A stretch of 38,449 nt of DNA. Origin: Nitrospiraceae bacterium. GTDB lineage: Bacteria; Nitrospirota; Nitrospiria; Nitrospirales; Nitrospiraceae. Of this stretch, positions 5,802 through 19,976 are shown piece after piece. The notes beneath the pieces are model-generated. The model was not told the origin of the DNA, searched no databases, and saw nothing but the letters and a program-made list of their open reading frames with translations. The DNA is taken from positions 1 to 38,449 of the forward strand of contig OMJK01000067.1 of assembly GCA_900299325.1 (NCBI GenBank), given 5' to 3'. Made by a program: the position numbers and the translations under genes. The stretch's first letter is position 1. Every line of letters starts with the position of its first letter.

Positions 5802-8294
5802 TCACGCCTCGACTTTTTCGACCAGCACCCGATAGTGGGCGGCTTCCGGCTCCAGCGCTTCCTGCAGCAGGACCTTGTGCCCGTCGTTCTTCAAGCTCAT
5901 CGGCACGTTCTTGATCGGCTCGCCGGCATCCAGCCAGACTTCCAGCTTCTCGCCCGCGTCCATCATCTCCAGTTTGAGCTTGGTCTTCACATAATTCATC
6001 GGACAGGCGACACCGCGCAGGTCGTACACCGGCGCGCCGGTTGGTGCAGGCGCGGCTTGTGGCGCCGGTTTGACCGGTTCGGTTTTCTTCGGGGCCGGCG
6101 CTTCCGTCGCCGGCGCCAGCTTGAGGTCCTTGCCCATTTGGTCCGTGGCGATGCGGCAGGCGTCGACAAAGCCTTTCGCAAAATCCATCTTCGACCGGGC
6201 GGACTCGGCAGTCGTGTCCTTGGGGCCCAGGTCCCCGACCTGTTTGCTCAGTTCACGATACATCGCCGGTACGATGCCCTTGGGAGCCAGGCGCCGTTCG
6301 AACTCCGACAGGATCTCCGCATCCGTCGCCGGGTCGAGCCCTTCGGTGACCAATAACGCTTTGGCGGCAGCCAGCACGGCGCGGTACGACTTGTTCACCG
6401 AAACGGAGTACTGGTGTTTGTCCACCAGGAGTTTTGCCTGGTAGAGTTCCTGATCGGCTTCGAGAATGCCGTTCTCGATCATTTCGAGCGCACCGCCGGC
6501 GCACTCGCCCGGCCCCAGATCTTCCAGGATGAATTCCTCTTCGCCTTCCCAGTCGTAGTAGAAGGTCGGATCGTCCCGATAGGACGGCACGATGGTGTAG
6601 GGAATCAGTTCGTCCTTCAACTTGTTCTTGCCAACGCGGGCGATGAAACCCGGCAGGCCTTCATTCGCCTGGCGGTCGCGCCGATAGACGTCGATCAAAT
6701 GCGTGAGCGCGGCCGGCACGGCTTTGGCCGGCAGCTTGACGGTCATCTGGCCGATGCGCGGCGTGCCGTTCACGGAACCGCCCAAGTGCAATTCGTAATG
6801 CGGCGCGACATGGTCGCCCAGACGTTTCCCGACTCCATGCAGTCCGATGGTCGAGATGTGGTGCTGCGCGCAGGAGTTGTGGCAGCCGCTGATCTTGACG
6901 TCAACGCCGGCTAAATCCTCGGGCACCCGCCCGGCGGGGAACACTTCGGCCAGTGCCCGCGCGAGGCCCTTCGACGACGTGATACCGAGGCCGCAGGTAT
7001 CGGTGCCCGGGCAGGCGATGATGTCTTCGACCAGTTCGGCGCCGGGATCAGCCAGACCGTGCGACACCAGTTCATCATAGAGCGCGGACACGTGATCCTC
7101 CGGAATCCAGCGGATGACGACGTTCTGATTGATCGTCGTTCTGAGATTGCCGTTGGAATAGCGCTCGGCCAGATCGGCGACGTGGAGCATCTGCTCTGCC
7201 GTGATGTCGCCCATAAAGAGCTTGATCGCGGCCGTGACATAGCCGCCCTGCTTTTGCGGTACCACGTTGGTGCGCTTCCACATCTGGAACGGGGTTTCAT
7301 GGCCGATGGCGCTGTGATGTCCGTTGGCGTTGGCCTGAACGCCTTTGGCCCCGCTCGTGCGAGTCGGCATGATCAAGGCAGGCGGCTCGTCCTGATGAGC
7401 CAGCAACGTGAGCCCGCCGTTCGTTGGAAGCGAACGGCCCATCGCGACGTAGGCCGCTTCCCAGCGGCGCTTGAATTCCTCGAAGCCCAACTTTTCGATC
7501 ACGAACTTCATACGGGCTTTGTTGCGGTTCTTGCGGTTGCCCAGGGTGTCGAACACCTTGATAACCGCTTCGATGCTCGGAATCAGCTCATCCATCGGCG
7601 TGAACTCGCGCAGCAGTTGCGCGACACGGGGTGCGGATCCGAGGCCGCCACCGGCCACCATGCGGAATCCGATCGCGCCATCCGCTCGCTTGACCGCCAG
7701 CAGGCCGATGTCGTGAATCGGTGTGAGGGCGCAATCATGCTTGCAGCCGGAGAAGGCGATCTTGAACTTCCTCGGCAGGCTCTGGTTGAGCGGATTGCGG
7801 AGAAGATGATAGGCGACCGTCTTTGCGTACGGTGTCACGTCGAACACTTCGCCCTGGCAGACTCCGGCCAGATGGCAGGCCGTGACGTTCCGCACGGTGT
7901 TGGCGCAGGCCTCTCTGGTCGTGAGGCCGACTTCGGCCAGCCCGCGCATGATCGTTGGCACGTCCCGCAGGTCGACAAAGTGCAGTTGGATGTCCTGCCG
8001 TGTCGTGACATGGCCGACGGCGGTGGCGTAGCGATCAGCGAGCTCCGCCACGCGGCGTAGCTGGTTGGCCGAGATGCCGCCGAAGGGAATCTTGATCCGC
8101 ACCATCTGCACGCCGGCCTGCCGCTGTCCGTAGATGCCGTACTGCAGGCGGAAGGGCTTGAAGATGTCTGTTGAGACATCGCCGGTCAGGGCGCGGCAGG
8201 CTTCGGCCTCGAACGTTTCGATTTCCTCGGCGATGGCCGGGGGAATCGGACCGGTCTTGATCGTGGGAATCGCCAGGCGCTGTGTTGTGCTCAT
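5802..8294 (-). CDS. Ferredoxin-type sulfite/nitrite reductase with C-terminal TusA-like domain
   Basis: Two NIR_SIR half-domains, CPGTDTCGLGIT and KISGCHNSCAQHHI siroheme/Fe-S cysteines; linker rich in A/P/K followed by YDLRGVACPMNYVKTKLKLEMMDAGEKLEVWLDAGEPIKNVPMSL, TusA-like. Start MSTTQRL (8294). Confidence 0.9.
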   Translation of the reverse strand: MSTTQRLAIPTIKTGPIPPAIAEEIETFEAEACRALTGDVSTDIFKPFRLQYGIYGQRQAGVQMVRIKIPFGGISANQLRRVAELADRYATAVGHVTTRQDIQLHFVDLRDVPTIMRGLAEVGLTTREACANTVRNVTACHLAGVCQGEVFDVTPYAKTVAYHLLRNPLNQSLPRKFKIAFSGCKHDCALTPIHDIGLLAVKRADGAIGFRMVAGGGLGSAPRVAQLLREFTPMDELIPSIEAVIKVFDTLGNRKNRNKARMKFVIEKLGFEEFKRRWEAAYVAMGRSLPTNGGLTLLAHQDEPPALIMPTRTSGAKGVQANANGHHSAIGHETPFQMWKRTNVVPQKQGGYVTAAIKLFMGDITAEQMLHVADLAERYSNGNLRTTINQNVVIRWIPEDHVSALYDELVSHGLADPGAELVEDIIACPGTDTCGLGITSSKGLARALAEVFPAGRVPEDLAGVDVKISGCHNSCAQHHISTIGLHGVGKRLGDHVAPHYELHLGGSVNGTPRIGQMTVKLPAKAVPAALTHLIDVYRRDRQANEGLPGFIARVGKNKLKDELIPYTIVPSYRDDPTFYYDWEGEEEFILEDLGPGECAGGALEMIENGILEADQELYQAKLLVDKHQYSVSVNKSYRAVLAAAKALLVTEGLDPATDAEILSEFERRLAPKGIVPAMYRELSKQVGDLGPKDTTAESARSKMDFAKGFVDACRIATDQMGKDLKLAPATEAPAPKKTEPVKPAPQAAPAPTGAPVYDLRGVACPMNYVKTKLKLEMMDAGEKLEVWLDAGEPIKNVPMSLKNDGHKVLLQEALEPEAAHYRVLVEKVEA

Positions 8295-8351
8295 GGGAAC
8301 ATCTCCTTCACCCTTCAACTTCGTTGAGCTGAAGGAACCGACCGTCCACGT

Positions 8352-8798
8352 TCAAATGTGATACATGGGATTGCGTTGCTCTTCGATGGCCCGTTGGCGG
8401 CCGGCAAGTTGTTCCACCGTGATATTGCCGAGCACGTCACGCTCCGCCCGCTGCACTTGATCCCAGACATCTCCCAGCAGCTGATCCTGCTTAGACTGGC
8501 GGCGGTCGAACGCGGTCTGACCGTGAAACGACCGGCGGAAGACCGGACCATCCAATGCTTCCCAGATGTCGGCGACGGACAGGTCCGACGGTTTTTTCAG
8601 CAGCACGTACCCGCCCTGTGCTCCGCGAAGGCCTTCGACCAGGCCGGCCTTCTTCATCATATGGAGGACCTGCTCCAGAAAGCGGATCGGAATAGCCTGA
8701 CGCCGTGCAATAGCCCTGGCTTGTACCGGTGCGTCCTTGCTCATCGCAAGGTCAACAGCCGCCATAATTCCATAGGTTACGCGTTGAGACACTTTCAT
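8352..8798 (-). CDS. Rrf2-family transcriptional regulator without cysteines (CymR-like)
   Basis: MKVSQRVTYGIMAAVDLAM, IPIRFLEQVLHMMKKAGLVEGLRGAQGGYVLLKKPSDLSVADIWEALDG: Rrf2 winged helix. No cysteine in the whole protein. Confidence 0.88.
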   Translation of the reverse strand: MKVSQRVTYGIMAAVDLAMSKDAPVQARAIARRQAIPIRFLEQVLHMMKKAGLVEGLRGAQGGYVLLKKPSDLSVADIWEALDGPVFRRSFHGQTAFDRRQSKQDQLLGDVWDQVQRAERDVLGNITVEQLAGRQRAIEEQRNPMYHI

Positions 8799-8806
8799 TC
8801 TTTATT

Positions 8807-8820
8807 ATTCCGATAGGAAT
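8807..8820. promoter_or_regulatory. Putative operator: perfect dyad ATTCC-GATA-GGAAT
   Basis: attccgataggaat, 5-bp arms and 4-nt spacer, between the predicted -10 and the Rrf2 start codon. Confidence 0.5.
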
Positions 8821-8835
8821 TTAATCCTGTGGATA

Positions 8836-8865
8836 TGTATACGCCTGCACTCGTCAGTCTGTCAA
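8836..8865 (-). promoter_or_regulatory. Predicted sigma70-type promoter of the rrf2-sulfur operon
   Basis: Minus strand TTGACA (8865..8860), 18-nt spacer, TATACA (8841..8836), upstream of the Rrf2 gene. Confidence 0.65.
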
Positions 8866-9133
8866 GGGGGCGGTCTGGCTTATAGAACCGTGAAACGTTC
8901 CATCGCTGATTCCGGTTTGCGGGTCAATGAGTCCGGCGACTCCGTCGTCCTATTCAATTTTTCTCTGACGTGTCGCCCTGCTCCTCCGTGATTCGATCGT
9001 CAACGATGCGGTGAGCGAGACGCCATCGTCAATACACGTAGCGCGTCGTTGAAATTTTCTCGACTCGCGATGGATCACCAAGGCAAATCCGCGCGGGACG
9101 TGCGCTCGGAGTCATGCAGAGAAAAATATCCGA

Positions 9134-9162
9134 TTGACATCGTTCTCCCTCTGGGCAATAAT
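9134..9162 (+). promoter_or_regulatory. Predicted sigma70-type promoter upstream of the Fis-type regulator
   Basis: TTGACA (9134-9139), 17-nt spacer, AATAAT (9157-9162). Confidence 0.6.
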
Positions 9163-9190
9163 CCCGCCCACTTCTTCGCGTGGTCCCTTC

Positions 9191-9781
9191 ATGTCTGTGC
9201 CTTCATCCGTCTTTACGATTCTCCTGATCACTGCGGACTCGGATGTCCAGGCGCACTTCAAGCACACATTCAAGGATGCAGCGATCACCGTCGCGCGGGA
9301 TTCCGCGTCGGTGCCGAAGGACGTGTCGAAACGGCCGTTCGATGCGGTGGTGGTGGAATCCCGGGCCGGGCATGACGACGTCGATACCGTGGCTCGGTAC
9401 ATCGATCCGTCGCACACACTCGTGATCACCGGTTCCCGCACGGTTCTCCGGCGGTCGGCGAAGATGATGCAGCTCATGAATCAGCAGGTTGGCCATGGGG
9501 CGAACGGGAAGGCGCGGGATTTGTCGCTGGAAGGGTATCTGGAATCGAAGATGGGCGACTTCGTCAAAGGGATGCGCAACGGATCGGCGCGGAATCTGCA
9601 CCCCATGCTGATCTCGGCCGTAGAGCGGCCCTTGATTGCCTCGGCGCTGCGTGAAACCCAGGGGAACCAGATTCAGGCGGCGGAGCTGCTCGGACTGAAC
9701 CGGAACACACTGCGGAAGAAGATTACCGAGTTACACATTCCCTTGAAGCGTTCGCGGACACGATCGACGCACAGTCTCTGA
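9191..9781 (+). CDS. Fis-type HTH transcriptional regulator with degenerate receiver-like N-terminus
   Basis: C-terminal HPMLISAVERPLIASALRETQGNQIQAAELLGLNRNTLRKKITELHI is a Fis/NtrC-type HTH. ATG at 9191 preferred over the track start at 9134, which coincides with the -35 box. Confidence 0.8.
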   Translation: MSVPSSVFTILLITADSDVQAHFKHTFKDAAITVARDSASVPKDVSKRPFDAVVVESRAGHDDVDTVARYIDPSHTLVITGSRTVLRRSAKMMQLMNQQVGHGANGKARDLSLEGYLESKMGDFVKGMRNGSARNLHPMLISAVERPLIASALRETQGNQIQAAELLGLNRNTLRKKITELHIPLKRSRTRSTHSL

Positions 9782-9862
9782 ACGGTGCGGTTCTCGTCGC
9801 GATGCGGTAGTGCCCATGGGTCCTAATCACCATCATCCATACACCCAACAAGGAGGGGACTG

Positions 9863-10135
9863 ATGACGAAAGAAGAATTGATTGCCAAGATGGCTGCATC
9901 CGCGGGCATCACCAAAGTGGCCGCCGGCACTGCGCTACAGGCTTTCACCGGGGCCGTGACGTCCTCCCTCAAGAGAGGACAGCGGGTATCCCTCGTCAAT
10001 TTCGGGACCTTCACCATCTCCAAGCGGAAAGCGCGGATGGGGAGAAACCCTCGCACCGGCGAGGCGCTCCGCATTCCAGCCGCCAAGGTTCCGAAGTTTT
10101 CGGCCGGTAAAGAATTGAAGTCAGCGGTCAAGTAA
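9863..10135 (+). CDS. HU/IHF-family DNA-binding protein
   Basis: MTKEELIAKMAASAGITKVAAGTALQAF...VNFGTFTISKRKARMGRNPRTGE; SD AAGGAGGGG upstream. Confidence 0.95.
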   Translation: MTKEELIAKMAASAGITKVAAGTALQAFTGAVTSSLKRGQRVSLVNFGTFTISKRKARMGRNPRTGEALRIPAAKVPKFSAGKELKSAVK

Positions 10136-10155
10136 CGACCGTCGACGGGCGAGTC

Positions 10156-10215
10156 AGCAAAGAGAAGGCGACACCTTCCGGCATACGGAGGGCGGTCTCC
10201 TTCTCTTTGCTTTTC
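10156..10215 (+). terminator. Rho-independent-like terminator after HU
   Basis: Arms AGCAAAGAGAAGG (10156-10168) and CCTTCTCTTTGCT (10199-10211), followed by a T-rich tract. Confidence 0.75.
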
Positions 10216-10245
10216 TTGACACTTTGTGCGGGCCTATATTAGCAT
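10216..10245 (+). promoter_or_regulatory. Predicted tRNA-Val promoter (TTGACA-N17-TTAGCAT)
   Basis: TTGACA at 10216-10221, TTAGCAT at 10239-10245; same architecture upstream of tRNA-fMet. Confidence 0.5.
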
Positions 10246-10260
10246 GCGCACCCGGACGAT

Positions 10261-10335
10261 AGGCGCGTAGCTCAGGGGGAGAGCGCTACCTTGACACGGT
10301 AGAGGTCGACGGTTCAAGACCGTCCGCGCCTACCA
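10261..10335 (+). tRNA. tRNA-Val (anticodon GAC), CCA encoded
   Basis: Cloverleaf: acceptor AGGCGCG/CGCGCCT, anticodon arm CTACC-TTGACAC-GGTAG, T arm GACGG-TTCAAGA-CCGTC, ACCA end. Confidence 0.95.
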
Positions 10336-10410: not shown

Positions 10411-12345
10411 GTGATGAACATTTCTACAAAAGGCGGCGCAGCGGTCACGGTTGTTTCCGGGCAGACGGTGCGGGATGCTCTGTCGGCGGTCGGGGTGGCC
10501 GTGGGACCCGATATTCTGGCGGCCAAGGTCAACGATCAGATCGTTGACCTGTCGAAGCCATTGACCGGCGATGCGGTCATCGAGCCGCTCCGGTTCGATA
10601 GCCCTGAAGGCCGGGAAGTCTACCGCCACAGCAGCACCCACATCATGGCTCAGGCGGTCAAGGAACTGTTCCCGACCGCCCAGTTGACCATCGGTCCGGC
10701 GCTGGAAGACAGTTTTTACTACGACTTCGCCTTCGAGCGGCCGTTTACGCCGGAGGATTTGGAGAAAATCGAGGAACGCGCCCGCGAGATCGCCAAACGC
10801 AAGCTGACGATCACCCGGCGGGAGTTTAGCAAGCAGGAGGCGATCGAGTTCTTCAAGTCTCGAGGCGAGCATTACAAGGTGGAACTGATCCAAAGCTTTC
10901 CGGACGGCGAACCCATTTCGGCCTATACTCAAGGCGAGTTCGTCGATCTGTGCCGCGGGCCGCACCTGCCGTCGACCGGCCACGTCGGGGCGTTCAAACT
11001 GCTGAATACCGCCGGCGCCTACTGGCGCGGCGATGAGCGGAACCCGATGCTGCAGCGGATCTACGGCACGTCCTTTCCGACCAAGGCCGAGCTGGATGCG
11101 CATCTGGCCCGCCTGGAGGAAATCAAGCGGCGCGACCACCGCAAAGTCGGCAAGGAACTCGATCTCATCACCATTCAGGACGAAATCGGCCCCGGCTTGG
11201 TGCTCTGGCATCCCAAAGGCGCCATGATCCGGTTGCTGATCGAGAACTTTTGGCGCGAACAGCATCTCAAAGGCGGTTACGAACTGGTGTACTCCCCCCA
11301 CGTGGCGCGGTTGGATCTCTGGAAGACGAGCGGCCACGTCGATTACTACCGGGAGAACATGTTTGCGTCGATGAAAGTGGAGGGCAGCGAATATCAATTG
11401 AAGCCAATGAACTGCCCGTACCACATCATGATTTACAAATCGCATCTCCGCAGCTACCGTGACCTGCCCATCCGCTATGGCGAACTGGGCACCGTCTACC
11501 GGTACGAACGGACCGGCGTGCTGCACGGTCTCTTGCGGGTGCGGGGATTCACGCAGGACGATGCGCACCTCTTCTGCCGTCCCGACCAGATCGAGAGCGA
11601 AGTCAGCCGCGTACTGGATTTCACGTTTTTCATCCTGAAGGCCTTCGGCTTCGTGGAATTCGAAATTTTTCTGTCGACCAGGCCGGAACAGTCCGTAGGG
11701 TCCGACGAAAACTGGAGCCTCGCCACGAGTTCGCTCGAAGCGGCGCTCAAGAGCCGCGGGATTTCGTATCACCTGGACAAGGGCGGCGGCGCGTTCTACG
11801 GTCCGAAGATCGACATCAAGATCAAAGACGCCCTGGGTCGCTCCTGGCAGTGCTCGACCGTTCAGGTCGATTTCAACAATCCGCAGCGCTTCGAACTCGG
11901 CTACATCGGCGAAGACGGCAAGGCCCATCAGCCGATCATGATCCACCGCGCCTTGATGGGTTCGGTGGAGCGGTTCTTCGGCATTCTGGTGGAGCATTAC
12001 GGCGGGGCGTTTCCGACGTGGCTGGCGCCGGTGCAGGTTGTGGTCATGGCGATTACCGACCAGCAGCGGGATTATGTCTCGTCGGTCGCGGCGCAACTGC
12101 GCGCCGCCGGGTTCCGGGTCGACGCGGATCTCCGGAACGAAAAGATCGGGTTCAAAATCCGGGAAGCGGAAAAGTCGAAGGTGCCCTTCATGCTCGTGGC
12201 CGGGGCCCGCGAAGTCCAGAGCGGGAGTCTCTCGGTCCGGGGCCGGAGCGGGTCGGATCTAGGCAGCATGACGGTTGCGGCCGTGCTGGAGCTCTTGCAA
12301 AAAGAGACGGCCGGCTCGCAGCGGGATTTCCAACTCACACACTGA
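10411..12345 (+). CDS. thrS: Threonyl-tRNA synthetase
   Basis: N-terminal TGS domain, HSSTHIMAQAVKELFP, class II motifs, KPMNCPYHIMIYK, HRALMGSVERFFGILVEHYGGAFPTWLAPVQ. Confidence 0.97.
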   Translation: MMNISTKGGAAVTVVSGQTVRDALSAVGVAVGPDILAAKVNDQIVDLSKPLTGDAVIEPLRFDSPEGREVYRHSSTHIMAQAVKELFPTAQLTIGPALEDSFYYDFAFERPFTPEDLEKIEERAREIAKRKLTITRREFSKQEAIEFFKSRGEHYKVELIQSFPDGEPISAYTQGEFVDLCRGPHLPSTGHVGAFKLLNTAGAYWRGDERNPMLQRIYGTSFPTKAELDAHLARLEEIKRRDHRKVGKELDLITIQDEIGPGLVLWHPKGAMIRLLIENFWREQHLKGGYELVYSPHVARLDLWKTSGHVDYYRENMFASMKVEGSEYQLKPMNCPYHIMIYKSHLRSYRDLPIRYGELGTVYRYERTGVLHGLLRVRGFTQDDAHLFCRPDQIESEVSRVLDFTFFILKAFGFVEFEIFLSTRPEQSVGSDENWSLATSSLEAALKSRGISYHLDKGGGAFYGPKIDIKIKDALGRSWQCSTVQVDFNNPQRFELGYIGEDGKAHQPIMIHRALMGSVERFFGILVEHYGGAFPTWLAPVQVVVMAITDQQRDYVSSVAAQLRAAGFRVDADLRNEKIGFKIREAEKSKVPFMLVAGAREVQSGSLSVRGRSGSDLGSMTVAAVLELLQKETAGSQRDFQLTH

Positions 12346-12355
12346 GAGGTGGCTT

Positions 12356-12865
12356 ATCGTTCCCAAACTGCGCGTGAATCGTGAGATTCGGGTCCGGGAA
12401 GTCCGGGTTATCGGCCCGGAGGGCGAACAGCTGGGGATCCTGCCGACGCCGGAGGCCTTCCGGCAGGCCCAGGAGCAGGGATACGACCTGGTCGAAGTGG
12501 CGCCGACGTCCGTTCCACCGGTCTGCCGGATCATGGATTACGGCAAGTACAAATATGAATTGAGCAAGAAGGAACATCAGAGCCGCCGGCATCAGAAGTC
12601 GACGCAGGTGAAAGAAATCAAGCTGCGGCCCAGAACCGACAAGCACGATTTGGAGATCAAGGTCCGGCAGATCAAAGAGTTCCTGGCGGAGGGGAACAAA
12701 ACGAAGGTCACGCTCACGTATCGCGGACGGGAAATGGCCAATCAGGAGATGGGGCGCGCGGTGATGAATTCGGTGATCGCGCAGCTCACCGAAACCGGAA
12801 TGATCGAATACGCGCCGCGCATGGAAGGGCGGAGTTTGATCATGATCGTGGCACCGAAGAACTAG
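12356..12865 (+). CDS. infC: Translation initiation factor IF-3, predicted AUC start codon
   Basis: (M)VPKLRVNREIRVREVRVIGPEGEQLGI...; no ATG/GTG/TTG at the homologous N-terminus; ATC at 12356 follows GAGAGGTGG. Confidence 0.9.
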   Translation: MVPKLRVNREIRVREVRVIGPEGEQLGILPTPEAFRQAQEQGYDLVEVAPTSVPPVCRIMDYGKYKYELSKKEHQSRRHQKSTQVKEIKLRPRTDKHDLEIKVRQIKEFLAEGNKTKVTLTYRGREMANQEMGRAVMNSVIAQLTETGMIEYAPRMEGRSLIMIVAPKN

Positions 12866-12904: not shown

Positions 12905-13099
12905 ATGAAAGTCAAAACACACAGCGGAGCCAGCAAACGATTTGCCAAGACCGGCAGCGGAAAAATTGTGCGGCGGAAGGCGGGCCGGCGCCATCTGCTC
13001 AGCCATAAGGCGCGGGACCGGAAACGCCGCTTGAGCGGCACGCAGACCGTGGACCCGACGAGGACCTTGTCTTTGAACCGGTTGCTCCCGTATAAATAG
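12905..13099 (+). CDS. rpmI: 50S ribosomal protein L35
   Basis: [43 protein letters not shown]. Confidence 0.97.
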
Positions 13100-13132: not shown

Positions 13133-13501
13133 ATGCCTCGCGTCAAAGGTGGATCGAAAACCAGACAACGAAGAAAGAAACGGCTGAAACTGGCGAAGGG
13201 ACAGTACGGAGGCCGGAGCCGGCTGTTCCGCTCAGCAACAGAATCGGTCGATAAGGGACAGCAGTATGCCTATGTGGGGCGCAAGGACCGGAAGCGGGAT
13301 TTCCGCCGCCTCTGGATCGCGCGCATCAGCGCTGCGACTCGCTCGCACGGGCTGACCTACAGTCGGTTCGTCAATGCCTTGAAAAAAGCCAACGTCCTGC
13401 TGGATCGGAAGGTCCTCTCCGACATGGCCATCAAGGACAGCGCCGGGTTCGAGAAACTCGTCGGTCTCGCCAAGCAGCATCTCACGCCAGCTACGGCCTA
13501 A
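13133..13501 (+). CDS. rplT: 50S ribosomal protein L20
   Basis: [65 protein letters not shown]. Confidence 0.97.
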
Positions 13502-13532
13502 GCCTCGTTGATTTATCTTTAGAGAGTCATTG

Positions 13533-13568
13533 AAAAGGGAGAACGACACAACGTCGTTCTCCCTTTTT
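13533..13568. terminator. Bidirectional terminator between rplT and pheT
   Basis: Perfect 15-bp stem AAAAGGGAGAACGAC / GTCGTTCTCCCTTTT with ACAAC loop and T tract; the stem overlaps the pheT stop codon. Confidence 0.9.
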
Positions 13569-15282
13569 ATTCGGAGCTGGTGAGCTGCGACAAGTTGACG
13601 TCGAATGACACAACCGGCACGGAGATCTGCCAGCGTTCAAGGACTTCGGGGTGGACTTCGCCGATGACGCCGACGGATGTTCCTCCAACCACGATCTTAC
13701 CCGCGCGGCCTTCGAGGAACGACGGATGCTGAACCGGCTGCAGGCTGTAATCCCTTCCTAAATGATAGAACAGCACATCCAAGCAGGAATGAATCTCGGA
13801 GAAGGCGGCGGTTGCGTGGGCAATCACGGCGCCGAGGATCATGTCGGTCCGTGAGCCGAGTTCGTGGGTCGGATCGGGAATTGCCACTTCGCCGGCCTCG
13901 AACAGCTTATGCGGATAGAAAGCCCGGCTGGACGCCGCTTCCACGCGCAGCAGGGACGGCAACATCCATTGGCGCAGGCAGGAGAACGTCAGGGCCATTG
14001 CATTATCGACCTCAACCATCTTGCCCCAGTCCGTGTCGTCCAGCCGCATGGCGTCGCGGTACTGATCCGGCGAACCGAGTATGTTGGAGATGATCTCCTG
14101 AAAGCCGAGCCCGACCATCAGTTCGCGCGCCCGGTCGGAAGTTTCTTCGATGCGCGAGAGCCCGCCCACGGTGAACTGCGCCGGCATCTCGGGCGCAAAC
14201 GATCCATAGCCGCGGCTCATCGCCACATCTTCCACCACATCCATCGGGTGCATGAGGTCGTTCCGGTAGGGCGGGAGCTTCGCCTTGACCGTTCCATTTC
14301 CGGCTGAGACCTCGTAGCCGTAGACTTCGAGCGCCTGCTTCACGGTCTTCACGCCCAGATCCTGGCCCAGCGCCTGTTCGATGGTCTTGATCTGAATCGT
14401 TCTCGGCGTTCCCAAGTCCTGCGGCGTGACGACGCGTTTCCCCAGCGGCGTGTTCTTAGGGTACTGCACTTCGACCGGTTCGATCGTTGCGCCGCGGTCG
14501 GCCAGATTCGCCGCGAAGATGTTCAGCGTCAGGATGACCATCGCGAGGTCGGTGCCCGTCACTTCGACGAACAGTTCATCGTCGCCGACCCGCACTTCGC
14601 CGATCTCACGGCTATTGATGATCGGCGGGAATGAGAGGGGCTGGTTCTTCGCGTCGCGCAGGATCGGCAGCCGGCTCTGCCCGGCCAGGATGTGCCCATG
14701 CTCCAATCCTTTCGGATGGACCATGAGGATTTCTGACAGGGTCATCACCGTTTCCATGCCGAGCGGCGTGAAGCGCGCTTCGTCCGGCCTCACGAGCTCG
14801 TACGTCACGGGGAAGTGGATCTTCTTCAGCTGGTAAAGGCCGATGGACACCGTTTTCCGCTTGTGCCCGAAGATGTCGGCCAGTTTCTCCTGCGTCTGAA
14901 TGAGTTGGGCCAGGCCGTCGTCCGTGACGCGGTACCCTGTAGCGGTGCAGGCTGCGACATAGGGACGGACCGATTCGATCCCCGGCGCCACGATGAGCCG
15001 CTGCGTCGCTTTGGTCTTTTTCGAGAAGAAGGCATAAGGCTTCGACTTGCCCTGTTGCTTGATGCGAACTTGCCGCGCGATCCCTTCGCAGCACCAGAGG
15101 TCCGGCCGGTTGCTGTCTTGCAGCTCGATCCGCAACTCGCCGTTCTCCGGGTTGTGGCCTTTCAGCTCGCCCTTCACAAGCATGAGCCACTCTTCGAGTT
15201 GTTCGATCGAGATCGAACGTGTCGCGCGGGCGCCGCCTAACAGCGATTCGAAATCCTCTTTGAAGATCGAAATAGTGGGCAT
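13567..15282 (-). CDS. pheT: Phenylalanyl-tRNA synthetase beta subunit, archaeal/eukaryal type
   Basis: 571 aa; starts directly in a B1-like domain (MPTISIFKEDFESLLG), LQDSNRPDLWCCEGIARQVR, YPHKLFEAGEVA; no N-terminal tRNA-binding OB domain. Confidence 0.93.
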   Translation of the reverse strand: MPTISIFKEDFESLLGGARATRSISIEQLEEWLMLVKGELKGHNPENGELRIELQDSNRPDLWCCEGIARQVRIKQQGKSKPYAFFSKKTKATQRLIVAPGIESVRPYVAACTATGYRVTDDGLAQLIQTQEKLADIFGHKRKTVSIGLYQLKKIHFPVTYELVRPDEARFTPLGMETVMTLSEILMVHPKGLEHGHILAGQSRLPILRDAKNQPLSFPPIINSREIGEVRVGDDELFVEVTGTDLAMVILTLNIFAANLADRGATIEPVEVQYPKNTPLGKRVVTPQDLGTPRTIQIKTIEQALGQDLGVKTVKQALEVYGYEVSAGNGTVKAKLPPYRNDLMHPMDVVEDVAMSRGYGSFAPEMPAQFTVGGLSRIEETSDRARELMVGLGFQEIISNILGSPDQYRDAMRLDDTDWGKMVEVDNAMALTFSCLRQWMLPSLLRVEAASSRAFYPHKLFEAGEVAIPDPTHELGSRTDMILGAVIAHATAAFSEIHSCLDVLFYHLGRDYSLQPVQHPSFLEGRAGKIVVGGTSVGVIGEVHPEVLERWQISVPVVSFDVNLSQLTSSE

Positions 15283-15286
15283 GGCG

Positions 15287-16852
15287 CTAGAAAATACCTC
15301 TGGTCGTCCGGATCAGTTCCAGGTTATCCGTGAACAGTTCGCGGATGTCGTGGATGCCGAGGGCGACCATGGCCATGCGGTCCAGGCCGAGTCCCCAGGC
15401 GATGACGGGCACGTCCACGCCCAACGGCAACGTGACTTCGGGACGGAACAGGCCGGCGCCGCCGAGTTCCATCCATCCCAGCCGCGGATGGCGGACGTGC
15501 AGTTCTACCGATGGTTCCGTGAAGGGAAAGTAGGCCGGCACGAATTTCACTTCTTTGGCTTGCGCCACTTCGCGCGCAAAGAGATTCAGCAGGCCGAGTA
15601 GCGTTCGAAAATTAATATCTTTGCCCAGGACGATGCCTTCGACCTGGAAAAAGTCAGTGGCATGTGTCGCGTCGACCTGGTCGTAGCGGAAGCAGCGCGC
15701 GATCGAGAAGTATTTCCCAGGCGTCAACGGTCCCGCCGCCAGCGTTCGCGCCGACACCGCCGTGCCCTGACTGCGCAGCACCAGCCGTTTGGCCCGCTCC
15801 ATATTGAAGGCGTATTTCCACCCGGTCGAGCCGGTCTTGCCACCGTCCTGGTGGGCCTTCGTGACGCGTGACAGGAACGGCTCGGCAATCTTCGTGGCGT
15901 GCGTCGGCTGTTTCACGAAGTATACGTCGTGGATGTCACGCGCCGGATGGAACTGAGGCATGAAGAGCGCGTCCATGTTCCAGAATTCGGTTTCGACCAG
16001 CGAGCCGCGCATTTCCTGGAATCCCATGCTGACGAGCTTCGTCTTCACCGTATCGAGGAACTCGCGGTAGGGATGCTTCTTGCCCGTGCCAATGCGCGGC
16101 GCCCGCAGGCTGATGGTGTATTTTCTGAATCGCTTACTGCGCCAGCTGCCGTCTTTCAGTAGTTCCGGACTCAACTGCGACACTTCTTCGGCGACGCCCT
16201 GCCGGGCAAGATGGTCTGCCGCCATGATGCCGGTGGAAGTGAGCTTGAACGAGCGGGCGACCCGGTCGTCCACCCGGAACGGCTCCTTGGCGTTGCCTCG
16301 CTTGACGGCATAGTCCTGAATGATCTGTCGGTCGGAGTCAGTAAACTGCTCCAACTCACGCGGGCCATTGTGCAATTGCTGGAGCAGCGCGCGCACCCGT
16401 TCAGCGGTCGGGCTGGGGCGTCCTGTGGCTTCGATACAGCCGCCCTGGATGATCAGCAACACACCTTCCTTTTTCAGCTTACCAACGGCTTTGCTGACAT
16501 CGGAGGGATCGAGCCCGTCTTTCGCCTGGAGATCCGGGATTGTCAACCGCCGGCCGGTGCTCGCGGATTCCCTGGCTGCGGTCAGCACCTGTTCAATCGG
16601 CGCGGCCTTCGCGTGGTAGTCCTGGCCGACGGGTGTGAGCGAGACGACCGGCGTGATCGTTTCCTTGTCGATGTCGAGCAGCGATTTGGCCAGCAGCCAT
16701 TCGATGGCCATGCTGAGCTGGGAGGGTTCCAGCGCCGTCGCAGTGGCGAGCCGTTCCGTTTCCAGGGCCGATCCGGACGGCTGGGCGCCAAAGGCCTTGA
16801 GCACTCTGATTTCGAGAGGGTGCAGGCTGTCGATGAGGGACGAAAGATCCAC
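15287..16852 (-). CDS. pheS: Phenylalanyl-tRNA synthetase alpha subunit, archaeal/eukaryal type
   Basis: KKHPYREFLDTVKTKLVSMGFQEMRGSLVETEFWNMDALFMPQFHPARD, FTEPSVELHVRHPRLGWMELGGAGLFRPEV, AWGLGLDRMAM; likely GTG start at 16852 just after the rpe stop (track ORF runs back to 17083). Confidence 0.93.
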   Translation of the reverse strand: MDLSSLIDSLHPLEIRVLKAFGAQPSGSALETERLATATALEPSQLSMAIEWLLAKSLLDIDKETITPVVSLTPVGQDYHAKAAPIEQVLTAARESASTGRRLTIPDLQAKDGLDPSDVSKAVGKLKKEGVLLIIQGGCIEATGRPSPTAERVRALLQQLHNGPRELEQFTDSDRQIIQDYAVKRGNAKEPFRVDDRVARSFKLTSTGIMAADHLARQGVAEEVSQLSPELLKDGSWRSKRFRKYTISLRAPRIGTGKKHPYREFLDTVKTKLVSMGFQEMRGSLVETEFWNMDALFMPQFHPARDIHDVYFVKQPTHATKIAEPFLSRVTKAHQDGGKTGSTGWKYAFNMERAKRLVLRSQGTAVSARTLAAGPLTPGKYFSIARCFRYDQVDATHATDFFQVEGIVLGKDINFRTLLGLLNLFAREVAQAKEVKFVPAYFPFTEPSVELHVRHPRLGWMELGGAGLFRPEVTLPLGVDVPVIAWGLGLDRMAMVALGIHDIRELFTDNLELIRTTRGIF

Positions 16853-16860
16853 CCGGAAGC

Positions 16861-17544
16861 CTATCGGTGCGCAGCGGCCGGCTGTCCCGCCGCGCGCAGC
16901 GCGGCGATCGTAGCGGCGTAATCCCGGCTGGAGAAGATGGCCGATCCGGAGACCAGTACGTCGGCGCCGGCTGCCAGCACTTGCGCGGCGTTGTCGACCT
17001 TCACGCCGCCGTCCACTTCGAGCAGGGCCCGGCTGCCGATGCGGTCGAGCATCTGCCGGACCGCCGCGACTTTTTTGAGGCACGAGGCGATAAACTTCTG
17101 CCCGCCGAATCCGGGATTGACCGACATGATGAGCACCAGATCTACGTCGGGAAGAATTTCTTCGAGCATGTGCACCGAGGTCGCGGGGTTGAGCGTCACA
17201 CCGGCTTTCACGCCCCGCTCTTTGATGGCCTGCACCGTGCGATGCAGGTGCGGACAGGCCTCCACATGGACGGTCAGATAATCCGCTCCCGCTTCGGCGA
17301 ATTCAGGGATGAACGCGTCGGCGTTCGTGATCATGAGATGGACGTCGAGCGGCAGCTTCGTCACTTTTTTCAGTGACTCGACGATCGGCGGACCGACGGT
17401 GAGATTTGGCACAAAGTGGCCGTCCATGACGTCGACGTGCAACAGATCGGCGCCGCCGTGTTCGACAGCGGCGACTTCGTCGGCCAGGCGTGCGAAATCG
17501 GCGGAGAGAATGGAGGGAGCAATGAGCGTCGGTCTGGCCATCAT
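16861..17544 (-). CDS. rpe: Ribulose-phosphate 3-epimerase
   Basis: IAPSILSADFARLADEV, LLHVDVMDGHFVPNLTVGP, SVNPGFGGQKFI, LEVDGGVK. Confidence 0.96.
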   Translation of the reverse strand: MMARPTLIAPSILSADFARLADEVAAVEHGGADLLHVDVMDGHFVPNLTVGPPIVESLKKVTKLPLDVHLMITNADAFIPEFAEAGADYLTVHVEACPHLHRTVQAIKERGVKAGVTLNPATSVHMLEEILPDVDLVLIMSVNPGFGGQKFIASCLKKVAAVRQMLDRIGSRALLEVDGGVKVDNAAQVLAAGADVLVSGSAIFSSRDYAATIAALRAAGQPAAAHR

Positions 17545-18983
17545 CCCACTTTGATCAGGCGCGCTGCGTAGAACCCGTCCATCGCGTAGGGATTGCCCAT
17601 CGTCGAGAGGTCTCCGCGCTTCGTGAGAAGCTCCTGCCCTGTGTCAGGGAGCCAAGGGGCCACGGATTCCCGCCGGAACTCCGCGTGGGCCTGCAAGAAT
17701 TGATCGACGACGGATTCGTTCTCTTCCGGCTCCGTCGAGCAGGTACTATAGACCAGCACCCCGCTGGGCCGCAAGACGCCGGCCGCTGCTTCGAGGAGCT
17801 CACGTTGGAGCCGGTGATGTCGTGCCAGTCCGGCGGTATCTTTCTTATGTTTCGCCTCCGGGTGCCGGCGGAGTACGCCGATGCCGCTGCAGGGTGCGTC
17901 TAGCAGGATGCGGTCGAACAGACGGTCCTGCGGGAGCAGGGGTGTGGAACGCTCACGGTCCGGTTTGCGCGCGGCCCGGAGCAGATCCAGGGGCTTTCGA
18001 CCGTCTCCGAGGAGCGGCCGCACGGATGTGAGGCGCAGCCGTCGGCAGTTTTCCCGCAACACGTCAAGCCGGGCCGGTTGTCGATCGACGGCGACGATGC
18101 ATCCGCGGTTCTCCATGAGCTCGGCTAAGTGCGAAGTCTTCCCGCCCGGTGCCGCGCAGACGTCGAGCGCCGTCTCGCCCGGTTGCGGGTCGAGCAACGG
18201 GGGAATGAGCTGGGCGGCTTCATCTTCCACATAGAAGGCGCCCTCTTGAAACCCTGGCAAGGAAGCAATCGGTCCGCCTGCTTCGAGCGTGAGTCCCACC
18301 GGACTGACAGCCGTCGCTCGCGCGGTCACACCCTGTTGACGCAGATGCGCAAGATACTCATCCCTCGTCGCATACTGTCGATTGACCCGGAGTGTTACAG
18401 GCGGGATAGATCCAGCGGAGGCGCAGGCGACATCGGCCTGTGCCGGTCCCAGTCGCTCGACCCACCGTTCGCAGAGCCACTGGGGAACAGCGTAACGGAT
18501 AGATAGGTTCTGCGCCGGATGGGTCGGCAGATCCGGCAGCGGCGGTTCAGGCAAGCGGAGGAGGTTGCGCAAGACCGCGTTGACGAACCCGCTCCAGTCC
18601 CGACCCAGCTCCGCCCCATAGGATCGGGCCAGATTGACCGACTCGTTCACGGCGGCTGAAGGGGGAATGCGGTCTAGGAAGAAGAGTTGATATGCGCCGA
18701 GGCGGAGCACCATTTGAATAGCCATGGGAAGCCGGCGCAACGGCTTCTGCAGGACAGGCTCTAAGCGCCAGTCGAGCGCTTCTTCTCTCCGCAAGACCCC
18801 ATACGCGAGTTCCATGGCCAGGGCCCGTTCACGAGGGTCCGGCGGAGCCTTGCGGAAGTGCCGGTCGAGCAGTTGATCGAGTCCGTCATCCGACTTGTGG
18901 CAGGCCAGTAGTGCAGCTAGGGCGGCGCTCCGGGCGGTCGGCGCCGCGGTACGGGGCTTCTGTGACGGATGATCGGTTGACAC
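17541..18983 (-). CDS. rsmB: 16S rRNA m5C967 methyltransferase
   Basis: N-terminal NusB-like domain, ALDVCAAPGGKTSHLAELMENRG, LLDAPCSGIGVLRRHPEAK, YSTCSTEPEENE; stop overlaps the rpe start (ATGA). Confidence 0.94.
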   Translation of the reverse strand: MSTDHPSQKPRTAAPTARSAALAALLACHKSDDGLDQLLDRHFRKAPPDPRERALAMELAYGVLRREEALDWRLEPVLQKPLRRLPMAIQMVLRLGAYQLFFLDRIPPSAAVNESVNLARSYGAELGRDWSGFVNAVLRNLLRLPEPPLPDLPTHPAQNLSIRYAVPQWLCERWVERLGPAQADVACASAGSIPPVTLRVNRQYATRDEYLAHLRQQGVTARATAVSPVGLTLEAGGPIASLPGFQEGAFYVEDEAAQLIPPLLDPQPGETALDVCAAPGGKTSHLAELMENRGCIVAVDRQPARLDVLRENCRRLRLTSVRPLLGDGRKPLDLLRAARKPDRERSTPLLPQDRLFDRILLDAPCSGIGVLRRHPEAKHKKDTAGLARHHRLQRELLEAAAGVLRPSGVLVYSTCSTEPEENESVVDQFLQAHAEFRRESVAPWLPDTGQELLTKRGDLSTMGNPYAMDGFYAARLIKVG

Positions 18984-19034: not shown

Positions 19035-19976
19035 TCATGCGTTGCCGGAACTGAATCGTTGGCCGGCGGTCGGGCTGTGGCCGGCGAGATACTGCGCCAC
19101 CGTCATGCGCTTTGAATTGGCCGGTTGAATCTCGATCAGGTCCAAAAACCCATCGCCGGTTGCCACGCGGATGCTATGCGGTGTCATGCGGACAATCGTT
19201 CCCGGATTGCCGTCCGCTTGACCGGGCGCTGCCGAAGCCCGCCAGATGGTCCATCGATCACGATCAAGGAACGTGTAGGCTCCGGGCCATGGGGTCAAGC
19301 CCCGCACACGGTTGGCCAGGACCCGCGCGCTCATCGACCAGTCGATCAACCCATCCTCCTTTTTGAGCAGCGGCGCCATCGTTGCGCGCGAATGATCCTG
19401 GGCACGCGGTGTTAAGGTTCCGGCTTTCAGTTGCGCAATGGTTGCGGCAAGGAGCCGTCCGCCGAGTTCCGCCAGGCGCGGGGCCAGGGTGCCCGCCGTA
19501 TCGTCCGGTGCGATGGGCAGGCGTTCCTGCAACAGCATCGCGCCCGTGTCCATTCCCTCATCCATCAGCATCGTGGTGATGCCCGTCTCCGTGTCGCCGT
19601 TGATCACCGCCCATTGGACCGGCGCCGCGCCACGGTATTTCGGGAGCAGCGAGCCATGCACGTTGATGCATCCCTTGGGAGGGAGTGCCAGAACGGTTGG
19701 AGGAAGAATGCGGCCGAAGGCCGTGACGGCGATCACGTCGGGTTTCCACTCGGCCAGCGCGTTCAAAAATTCCGTCGTCTTGATCTTGACCGGTTGGAGG
19801 ACGGGGATGCCTGCATGTTGCGCGGCCAGTTTTACGGGAGACGGCGTGAGCGTGTGGCCGCGCCCTTTGGGCCGGTCCGGTTGTGTGACGACGCCGACGA
19901 CCTGATCGTCCGATCGCACGAGCGCGTTCAATGACGGCACGGCAAATTCCGGTGTGCCCATGAAGACGATCCGCAT
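19035..19976 (-). CDS. fmt: Methionyl-tRNA formyltransferase
   Basis: MRIVFMGTPEFAVPSLNALV, DRPKGRGHTLTPSPVK, NVHGSLLPKYRGAAPVQWAVINGDTETGITTMLMDEGMDTG. Confidence 0.97.
   Translation of the reverse strand: MRIVFMGTPEFAVPSLNALVRSDDQVVGVVTQPDRPKGRGHTLTPSPVKLAAQHAGIPVLQPVKIKTTEFLNALAEWKPDVIAVTAFGRILPPTVLALPPKGCINVHGSLLPKYRGAAPVQWAVINGDTETGITTMLMDEGMDTGAMLLQERLPIAPDDTAGTLAPRLAELGGRLLAATIAQLKAGTLTPRAQDHSRATMAPLLKKEDGLIDWSMSARVLANRVRGLTPWPGAYTFLDRDRWTIWRASAAPGQADGNPGTIVRMTPHSIRVATGDGFLDLIEIQPANSKRMTVAQYLAGHSPTAGQRFSSGNA

Follow-up and report, generated by a model that had tools for sequence, protein, structure and literature searches.

The phenylalanyl-tRNA synthetase (PheRS) encoded in the window, a stretch of 38,449 nucleotides from a Nitrospiraceae bacterium (contig OMJK01000067.1), is of the archaeal/eukaryal type. 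Very probably, an (αβ)2 enzyme of this kind, acting as the only PheRS, replaced the bacterial enzyme in an ancestor of the class Nitrospiria and neighboring families. The evidence comes from enzyme type, copy number, gene neighborhood, distribution across the phylum and the sequences of the cognate tRNAs.

Results

Layout of the PheRS locus

The relevant part of the window contains the following features:

10411..12345, forward strand: thrS, open reading frame, with homologues in this order throughout the phylum
12359..12865, forward strand: infC, open reading frame
12905..13099, forward strand: rpmI, recognized by translation and synteny
13133..13501, forward strand: rplT, open reading frame, convergent with pheT
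13531..13569, no strand assigned: hairpin with A/T tracts that separates rplT from pheT and overlaps the pheT stop codon
13567..15282, reverse strand: pheT, beta subunit (571 aa) of the archaeal/eukaryal-type PheRS
15287..16852, reverse strand: pheS, alpha subunit (521 aa) of the archaeal/eukaryal-type PheRS, starting with GTG and separated by 4 nt from pheT downstream
16861..17544, reverse strand: rpe, ribulose-phosphate 3-epimerase, open reading frame directly upstream of pheS
17541..18983, reverse strand: rsmB, open reading frame, order fmt-rsmB-rpe-pheS-pheT conserved in many families
19035..19976, reverse strand: fmt, open reading frame, conserved order

The four genes thrS, infC, rpmI and rplT thus run on the forward strand towards pheT, pheS, rpe, rsmB and fmt on the reverse strand, and rplT and pheT lie tail to tail. 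The near-perfect hairpin that separates them (-26.8 kcal/mol on one strand and -24.4 kcal/mol on the other, z about -7.9, for a folded stretch of 45 nt) is a probable bidirectional terminator shared by both transcription units. Elsewhere in the window (5802-8318, reverse strand), an 838-aa open reading frame combines sulfite/nitrite reductase domains with a C-terminal TusA domain and also gives a HEPN match; it adjoins genes for a PAPS reductase and for a fusion of GTPase and APS kinase.

Both subunits are of the archaeal/eukaryal type

The assignment of positions 13567-16852 on the reverse strand to archaeal/eukaryal-type PheT and PheS is confirmed and far beyond chance. PheT matches the NCBIfam model TIGR00471 (pheT_arch) with 466 bits over residues 1-567 (cut-off 283) and reaches only 113 bits with TIGR00472 (pheT_bact), well below the cut-off of 403. 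PheS matches NF003210 (NCBIfam) with 566 bits over residues 9-518 (cut-off 350), and its homologues can be aligned from residue 1. In Pfam searches of PheT, the B5 and CLM domains were present and the OB-fold domain B2 (tRNA_bind, PF01588) was not found, the latter being a weak discriminator here as many bacterial-type relatives also lack B2. The anticodon-binding domain B8 (FDX-ACB, PF03147) was absent from the PheT of the window and from that of family f39, introduced below, and was found in the bacterial-type PheT of relatives. The window protein therefore does not have the bacterial PheT architecture of about 800 aa with B8. In archaeal/eukaryal PheT, B8 is missing (PMC3275996).

The closest solved relatives are Pyrococcus and human PheT for the beta subunit and eukaryotic cytosolic PheS for the alpha subunit. 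Asn223 of PheT, invariant in 24 aligned Nitrospirota PheT sequences, aligns with the editing-site residue Asn217 of P. horikoshii, a position occupied by His in bacteria (PMC3275996). The structure predicted for PheS (mean pLDDT 73.7, pTM 0.47) has human PheS (3l4g) as its best structural match over the whole length (523 columns), at a low TM-score of 0.42. Compared with human PheS, the Phe pocket shows an NPY to FPF difference. A conserved N-terminal extension of about 220 aa is present in PheS; in archaeal and eukaryal PheS, the N-terminus carries DNA-binding-like domains. Overall, the enzyme resembles human 3l4g and Pyrococcus horikoshii 2cxi in its long PheS, its short PheT without B2 and B8 and its editing Asn. 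It differs from bacterial PheRS, with subunits of 340 and 800 aa, B8 and usually B2, and resembles the bacterial enzyme encoded downstream of rplT in its chromosomal neighborhood and the tRNA served. By analogy with archaeal/eukaryal architecture, the anticodon would be read without a B8 domain, and mischarged Tyr is expected to be edited at the B3/B4 site. An earlier note, made from the letters of the window, had read both subunits as archaeal/eukaryal in type and PheT as devoid of an OB-fold N-terminus; family models, domains and solved relatives bear out the former and the absence of PF01588 the latter.

Among the relatives, bacterial-type PheT proteins of about 690 aa (L161, L163 and others; families f17, f20 and f23-f42) lack the entire B2/tRNA_bind OB-fold: in 20 representatives, 0 of the 108 E. 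coli B2 columns are filled. B2 is complete in f16, f19 and genome G154. Loss of B2 from PheT has been reported for CPR bacteria (PMC5370408). In contrast to its family mate G083, G154 (family f29) encodes at locus L206 a full-length bacterial PheT that includes B2, a difference that looks like replacement of one bacterial PheRS by another.

The archaeal-type enzyme is the only PheRS found and is widespread in the phylum

The window belongs to a Nitrospira metagenome-assembled genome (MAG) that is 77% complete. A search of this genome with PF01409, which covered bacterial-type PheS (sought in this genome only), yielded no second PheRS; the only other hit is a sub-threshold match inside a HisRS-like open reading frame. 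The archaeal and bacterial PheT models match one and the same gene. Because of the incompleteness of the MAG, the argument for a single PheRS rests on its relatives: near-complete and single-contig genomes encode one PheT each, among them G147 and G055 (4,317,083 bases), presumably N. defluvii (FP929003.1). The second, bacterial-type PheRS for which the earlier note had suggested a search was thus found neither in this MAG nor, as judged by PheT, in these relatives.

Among 396 genomes of the phylum, mostly MAGs of mixed completeness, 212 carry archaeal-type and 159 bacterial-type PheT above the model cut-offs, and about 25 carry neither above the cut-off; comparison of the two match tables by reading revealed none with both. 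In 14 control genomes, the archaeal model exceeded its cut-off in four and the bacterial model in ten. A scan of a genome collection returned 80 loci, all from records of Nitrospira or Nitrospirota except two labeled uncultured Nitrosospira. Viral contigs scanned with both subunits gave no matches, and the archaeal-type PheRS was not found in plasmid and phage records. The archaeal-type enzyme spans the class Nitrospiria as well as further families and is not peculiar to one genome or genus.

These data bear on two rival readings. If two PheRS systems coexisted in Nitrospira and the archaeal-type one were accessory, the bacterial counterpart could have escaped notice in a genome that is 77% complete, where absence is weak evidence. 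This is very unlikely given the single PheT of G055 and G147, the lack of any genome seen with both PheT types and the conservation of the pheS-pheT pair in 80/80 Nitrospira-type loci. An archaeal-type gene in a metagenome bin also raises the suspicion of archaeal contamination. That explanation is refuted, its probability being close to nil: the same contig carries the bacterial thrS-infC-rplT and fmt-rsmB-rpe genes, and the identical arrangement occurs in the complete genomes of N. moscoviensis (L011) and N. defluvii (L080).

Gene order around pheST in relatives

In all 80 retrieved Nitrospira-type loci, rpe is located upstream of pheS on the same strand, and rplT is convergent with pheT wherever the contig extends far enough to include it (65 loci by script, and L033 by inspection). 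L033 (Nitrospira sp. YR-XLJ-1) had appeared to be a co-directional locus and proved convergent upon inspection; at 8001-10300, pheT is reduced to about 214 aa and runs into a truncated rplT, probably through an assembly deletion. Convergence of rplT and pheT is also the rule in most other archaeal-type members of the phylum. In f14, pheST is joined to rpe and rplT is not nearby, while in f18 neither gene is nearby. Most bacterial-type families have thrS-infC-rpmI-rplT-pheS-pheT all in one direction, and this co-directional order is shared by Legionella and, from infC on, by Sinorhizobium. The comparison made in the earlier note, according to which pheST follows rplT co-directionally in many bacteria and the window deviates by having pheST convergent and joined to fmt-rsmB-rpe, is therefore right, and the deviating arrangement is kept across Nitrospira loci. 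It probably arose when foreign pheST genes were joined downstream of fmt-rsmB-rpe, tail to tail with the old thrS-infC-rpmI-rplT operon; the convergent pheST points at the very site where bacterial relatives keep theirs.

Family f39 (L195, L207) has archaeal-type pheS-pheT in the bacterial slot, co-directionally after rplT. Its ThrS, InfC and RplT cluster with those of the bacterial-type clade (SH-aLRT 98), as does its rpoB (support 98), and its tRNA-Phe is one nucleotide away from those of bacterial-type relatives and eight from that of f18. Its PheRS, on the other hand, is sister to the f18 enzyme with support of 100/100. Taken together, slot synteny, neighboring genes, rpoB and tRNA, set against the grouping of PheRS with f18, suggest as the simplest reading a later, separate and precise in-slot replacement within the phylum. 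It should be noted that rpoB alone does not reject a grouping of f18 with f39 (p-AU 0.21).

tRNA-Phe follows the organism

A tRNA-Phe pattern was matched in 70 of 76 genomes. The 68 tabulated sequences all have a GAA anticodon and A73, and none has G20. Base 20 is U in 30/30 bacterial-type genomes, and among the 38 archaeal-type genomes it is U in 33 and C in five; U59 accompanies U20 or C20. In published identity sets of tRNA-Phe, yeast and Aeropyrum have G20, whereas E. coli has U20/U59 (PMC9976931). The tRNA-Phe of f18 (archaeal-type) and f16 (bacterial-type) is identical at 73/73 nucleotides. As judged from these sequences, tRNA-Phe follows the lineage of the organism and not the type of PheRS. 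U20 or C20, the adherence to lineage and the identity between f18 and f16 together indicate that tRNA-Phe was not co-transferred and that the enzyme would have to accept a bacterial tRNA. The archaeal/eukaryal-type PheRS would hence charge the cell's own bacterial-type tRNA-Phe, a setting that distinguishes it from archaeal/eukaryal PheRS, whose partners in yeast and Aeropyrum carry G20 (PMC9976931).

The tRNA-Phe of Nitrospirales (L332-L337, families f1-f3) has a rebuilt anticodon stem with C27-G43 and C30-G40. These pairs and the C20 present in five genomes set it apart from every bacterial-type relative examined.

Phylogeny and probable history of the replacement

In the PheRS tree, rooted with human and one other eukaryote, the archaeal-type enzymes of Nitrospirota form one group relative to these two eukaryotic sequences, the sole archaeal sequence used anywhere in the analysis being residues 1-348 of Pyrococcus PheT. 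Family f22, which we take to be Leptospirillum-like, branches first, followed by f14. The RpoB of f22 (L246, L247) stands out: its reading frame is 1724-1730 aa long and includes a large additional segment between model positions ~220 and 254-272. The bacterial-type PheRS of f16, f19, f20 and the families f17-f43, with the exception of G154, cluster together relative to other phyla, albeit with weak support (SH-aLRT 81); we infer that this bacterial-type clade corresponds to Thermodesulfovibrionia. On the rpoB tree, the fewest changes of PheRS type amount to three. As rpoB rejects neither f18 with f39 nor all archaeal-type genomes as one group (p-AU 0.073), the number of replacements is uncertain.

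Two histories compete. We favor a history in which the bacterial enzyme was inherited and was displaced once, long ago, after which the archaeal type spread to f18 and f39. The main rival holds that the archaeal-type PheRS is ancestral in Nitrospirota, that the f16-f43 clade regained a bacterial-type enzyme in the rplT slot and that f18 and f39 are relics. It draws on the fact that archaeal-type families surround the bacterial-type clade on the rpoB tree and that f22 and f14 are early branches of the rpoB tree as well as of the PheRS tree; moreover, the full-length PheT of G154, unlike that of its family mate, shows that exchange can also affect bacterial-type PheRS. Nevertheless, the bacterial-type PheRS fall into a single, albeit weakly supported, group and share the order rplT-pheS-pheT with Sinorhizobium and Legionella, so that the bacterial state looks inherited. 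In addition, the PheRS of f39 and f18 are sisters, which their neighboring genes and tRNAs are not. A regain appears rather improbable. Under the favored history, the bacterial PheRS would have given way to an ultimately archaeal donor's enzyme in an ancestor of Nitrospiria and neighboring families, and f39 would have undergone its own exchange later. Enzyme type, synteny, the f39 slot and a tRNA that follows the lineage make horizontal displacement of the bacterial PheRS, old and followed at least once by an in-slot replacement, well supported. The earlier note had proposed such a displacement for the window; enzyme type, single copy, synteny and tRNA substantiate the proposal and extend it beyond this genome and genus.

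Discussion

PheRS types are held to divide almost cleanly between Bacteria and Archaea. The precedent for an exception, already invoked in the earlier note, is established in the literature: Spirochaeta, Borrelia and Treponema possess archaeal-type PheRS with alpha subunits of 513-528 aa and beta subunits of 514-573 aa (Andam and Gogarten 2011, PMC3191353). As in spirochaetes, both subunits in Nitrospirota are archaeal-type and of similar length, the bacterial enzyme has been replaced in part of one phylum, and sister families keep the bacterial form. Unlike that case, the phylum is a different one, and Nitrospira is not mentioned in the paper (PMC3191353); the Nitrospirota further offer a convergent locus at the old site, the in-slot pair of f39 and a direct comparison of tRNAs. 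We found no description of an archaeal-type PheRS in Nitrospira, Nitrospirae or Leptospirillum in the literature, with few subscription papers covered, and this report is likely the first.

Archaeal/eukaryotic PheRS-tRNA pairs have been described as not cross-reacting with bacterial ones (PMC3275996). Nitrospira and its relatives appear to live with just such a cross-domain pairing. It is an evenly balanced possibility that PheRS forms have been swapped repeatedly within this one phylum, at least once exactly in place and with unchanged tRNA-Phe, the two forms being interchangeable there because the Nitrospirota enzyme no longer needs the archaeal identity base G20. The Nitrospirota thus constitute a natural test of the interchangeability of the two kinds of PheRS, and since an identical 73-nt tRNA-Phe occurs with different PheRS types, the question whether the enzyme or the tRNA has adapted is directly testable. 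Within the phylum, PheRS type can serve as a phylogenetic marker, and the finding calls for caution with PheRS-based marker trees, the engineering of orthogonal pairs and PheRS-directed inhibitors.
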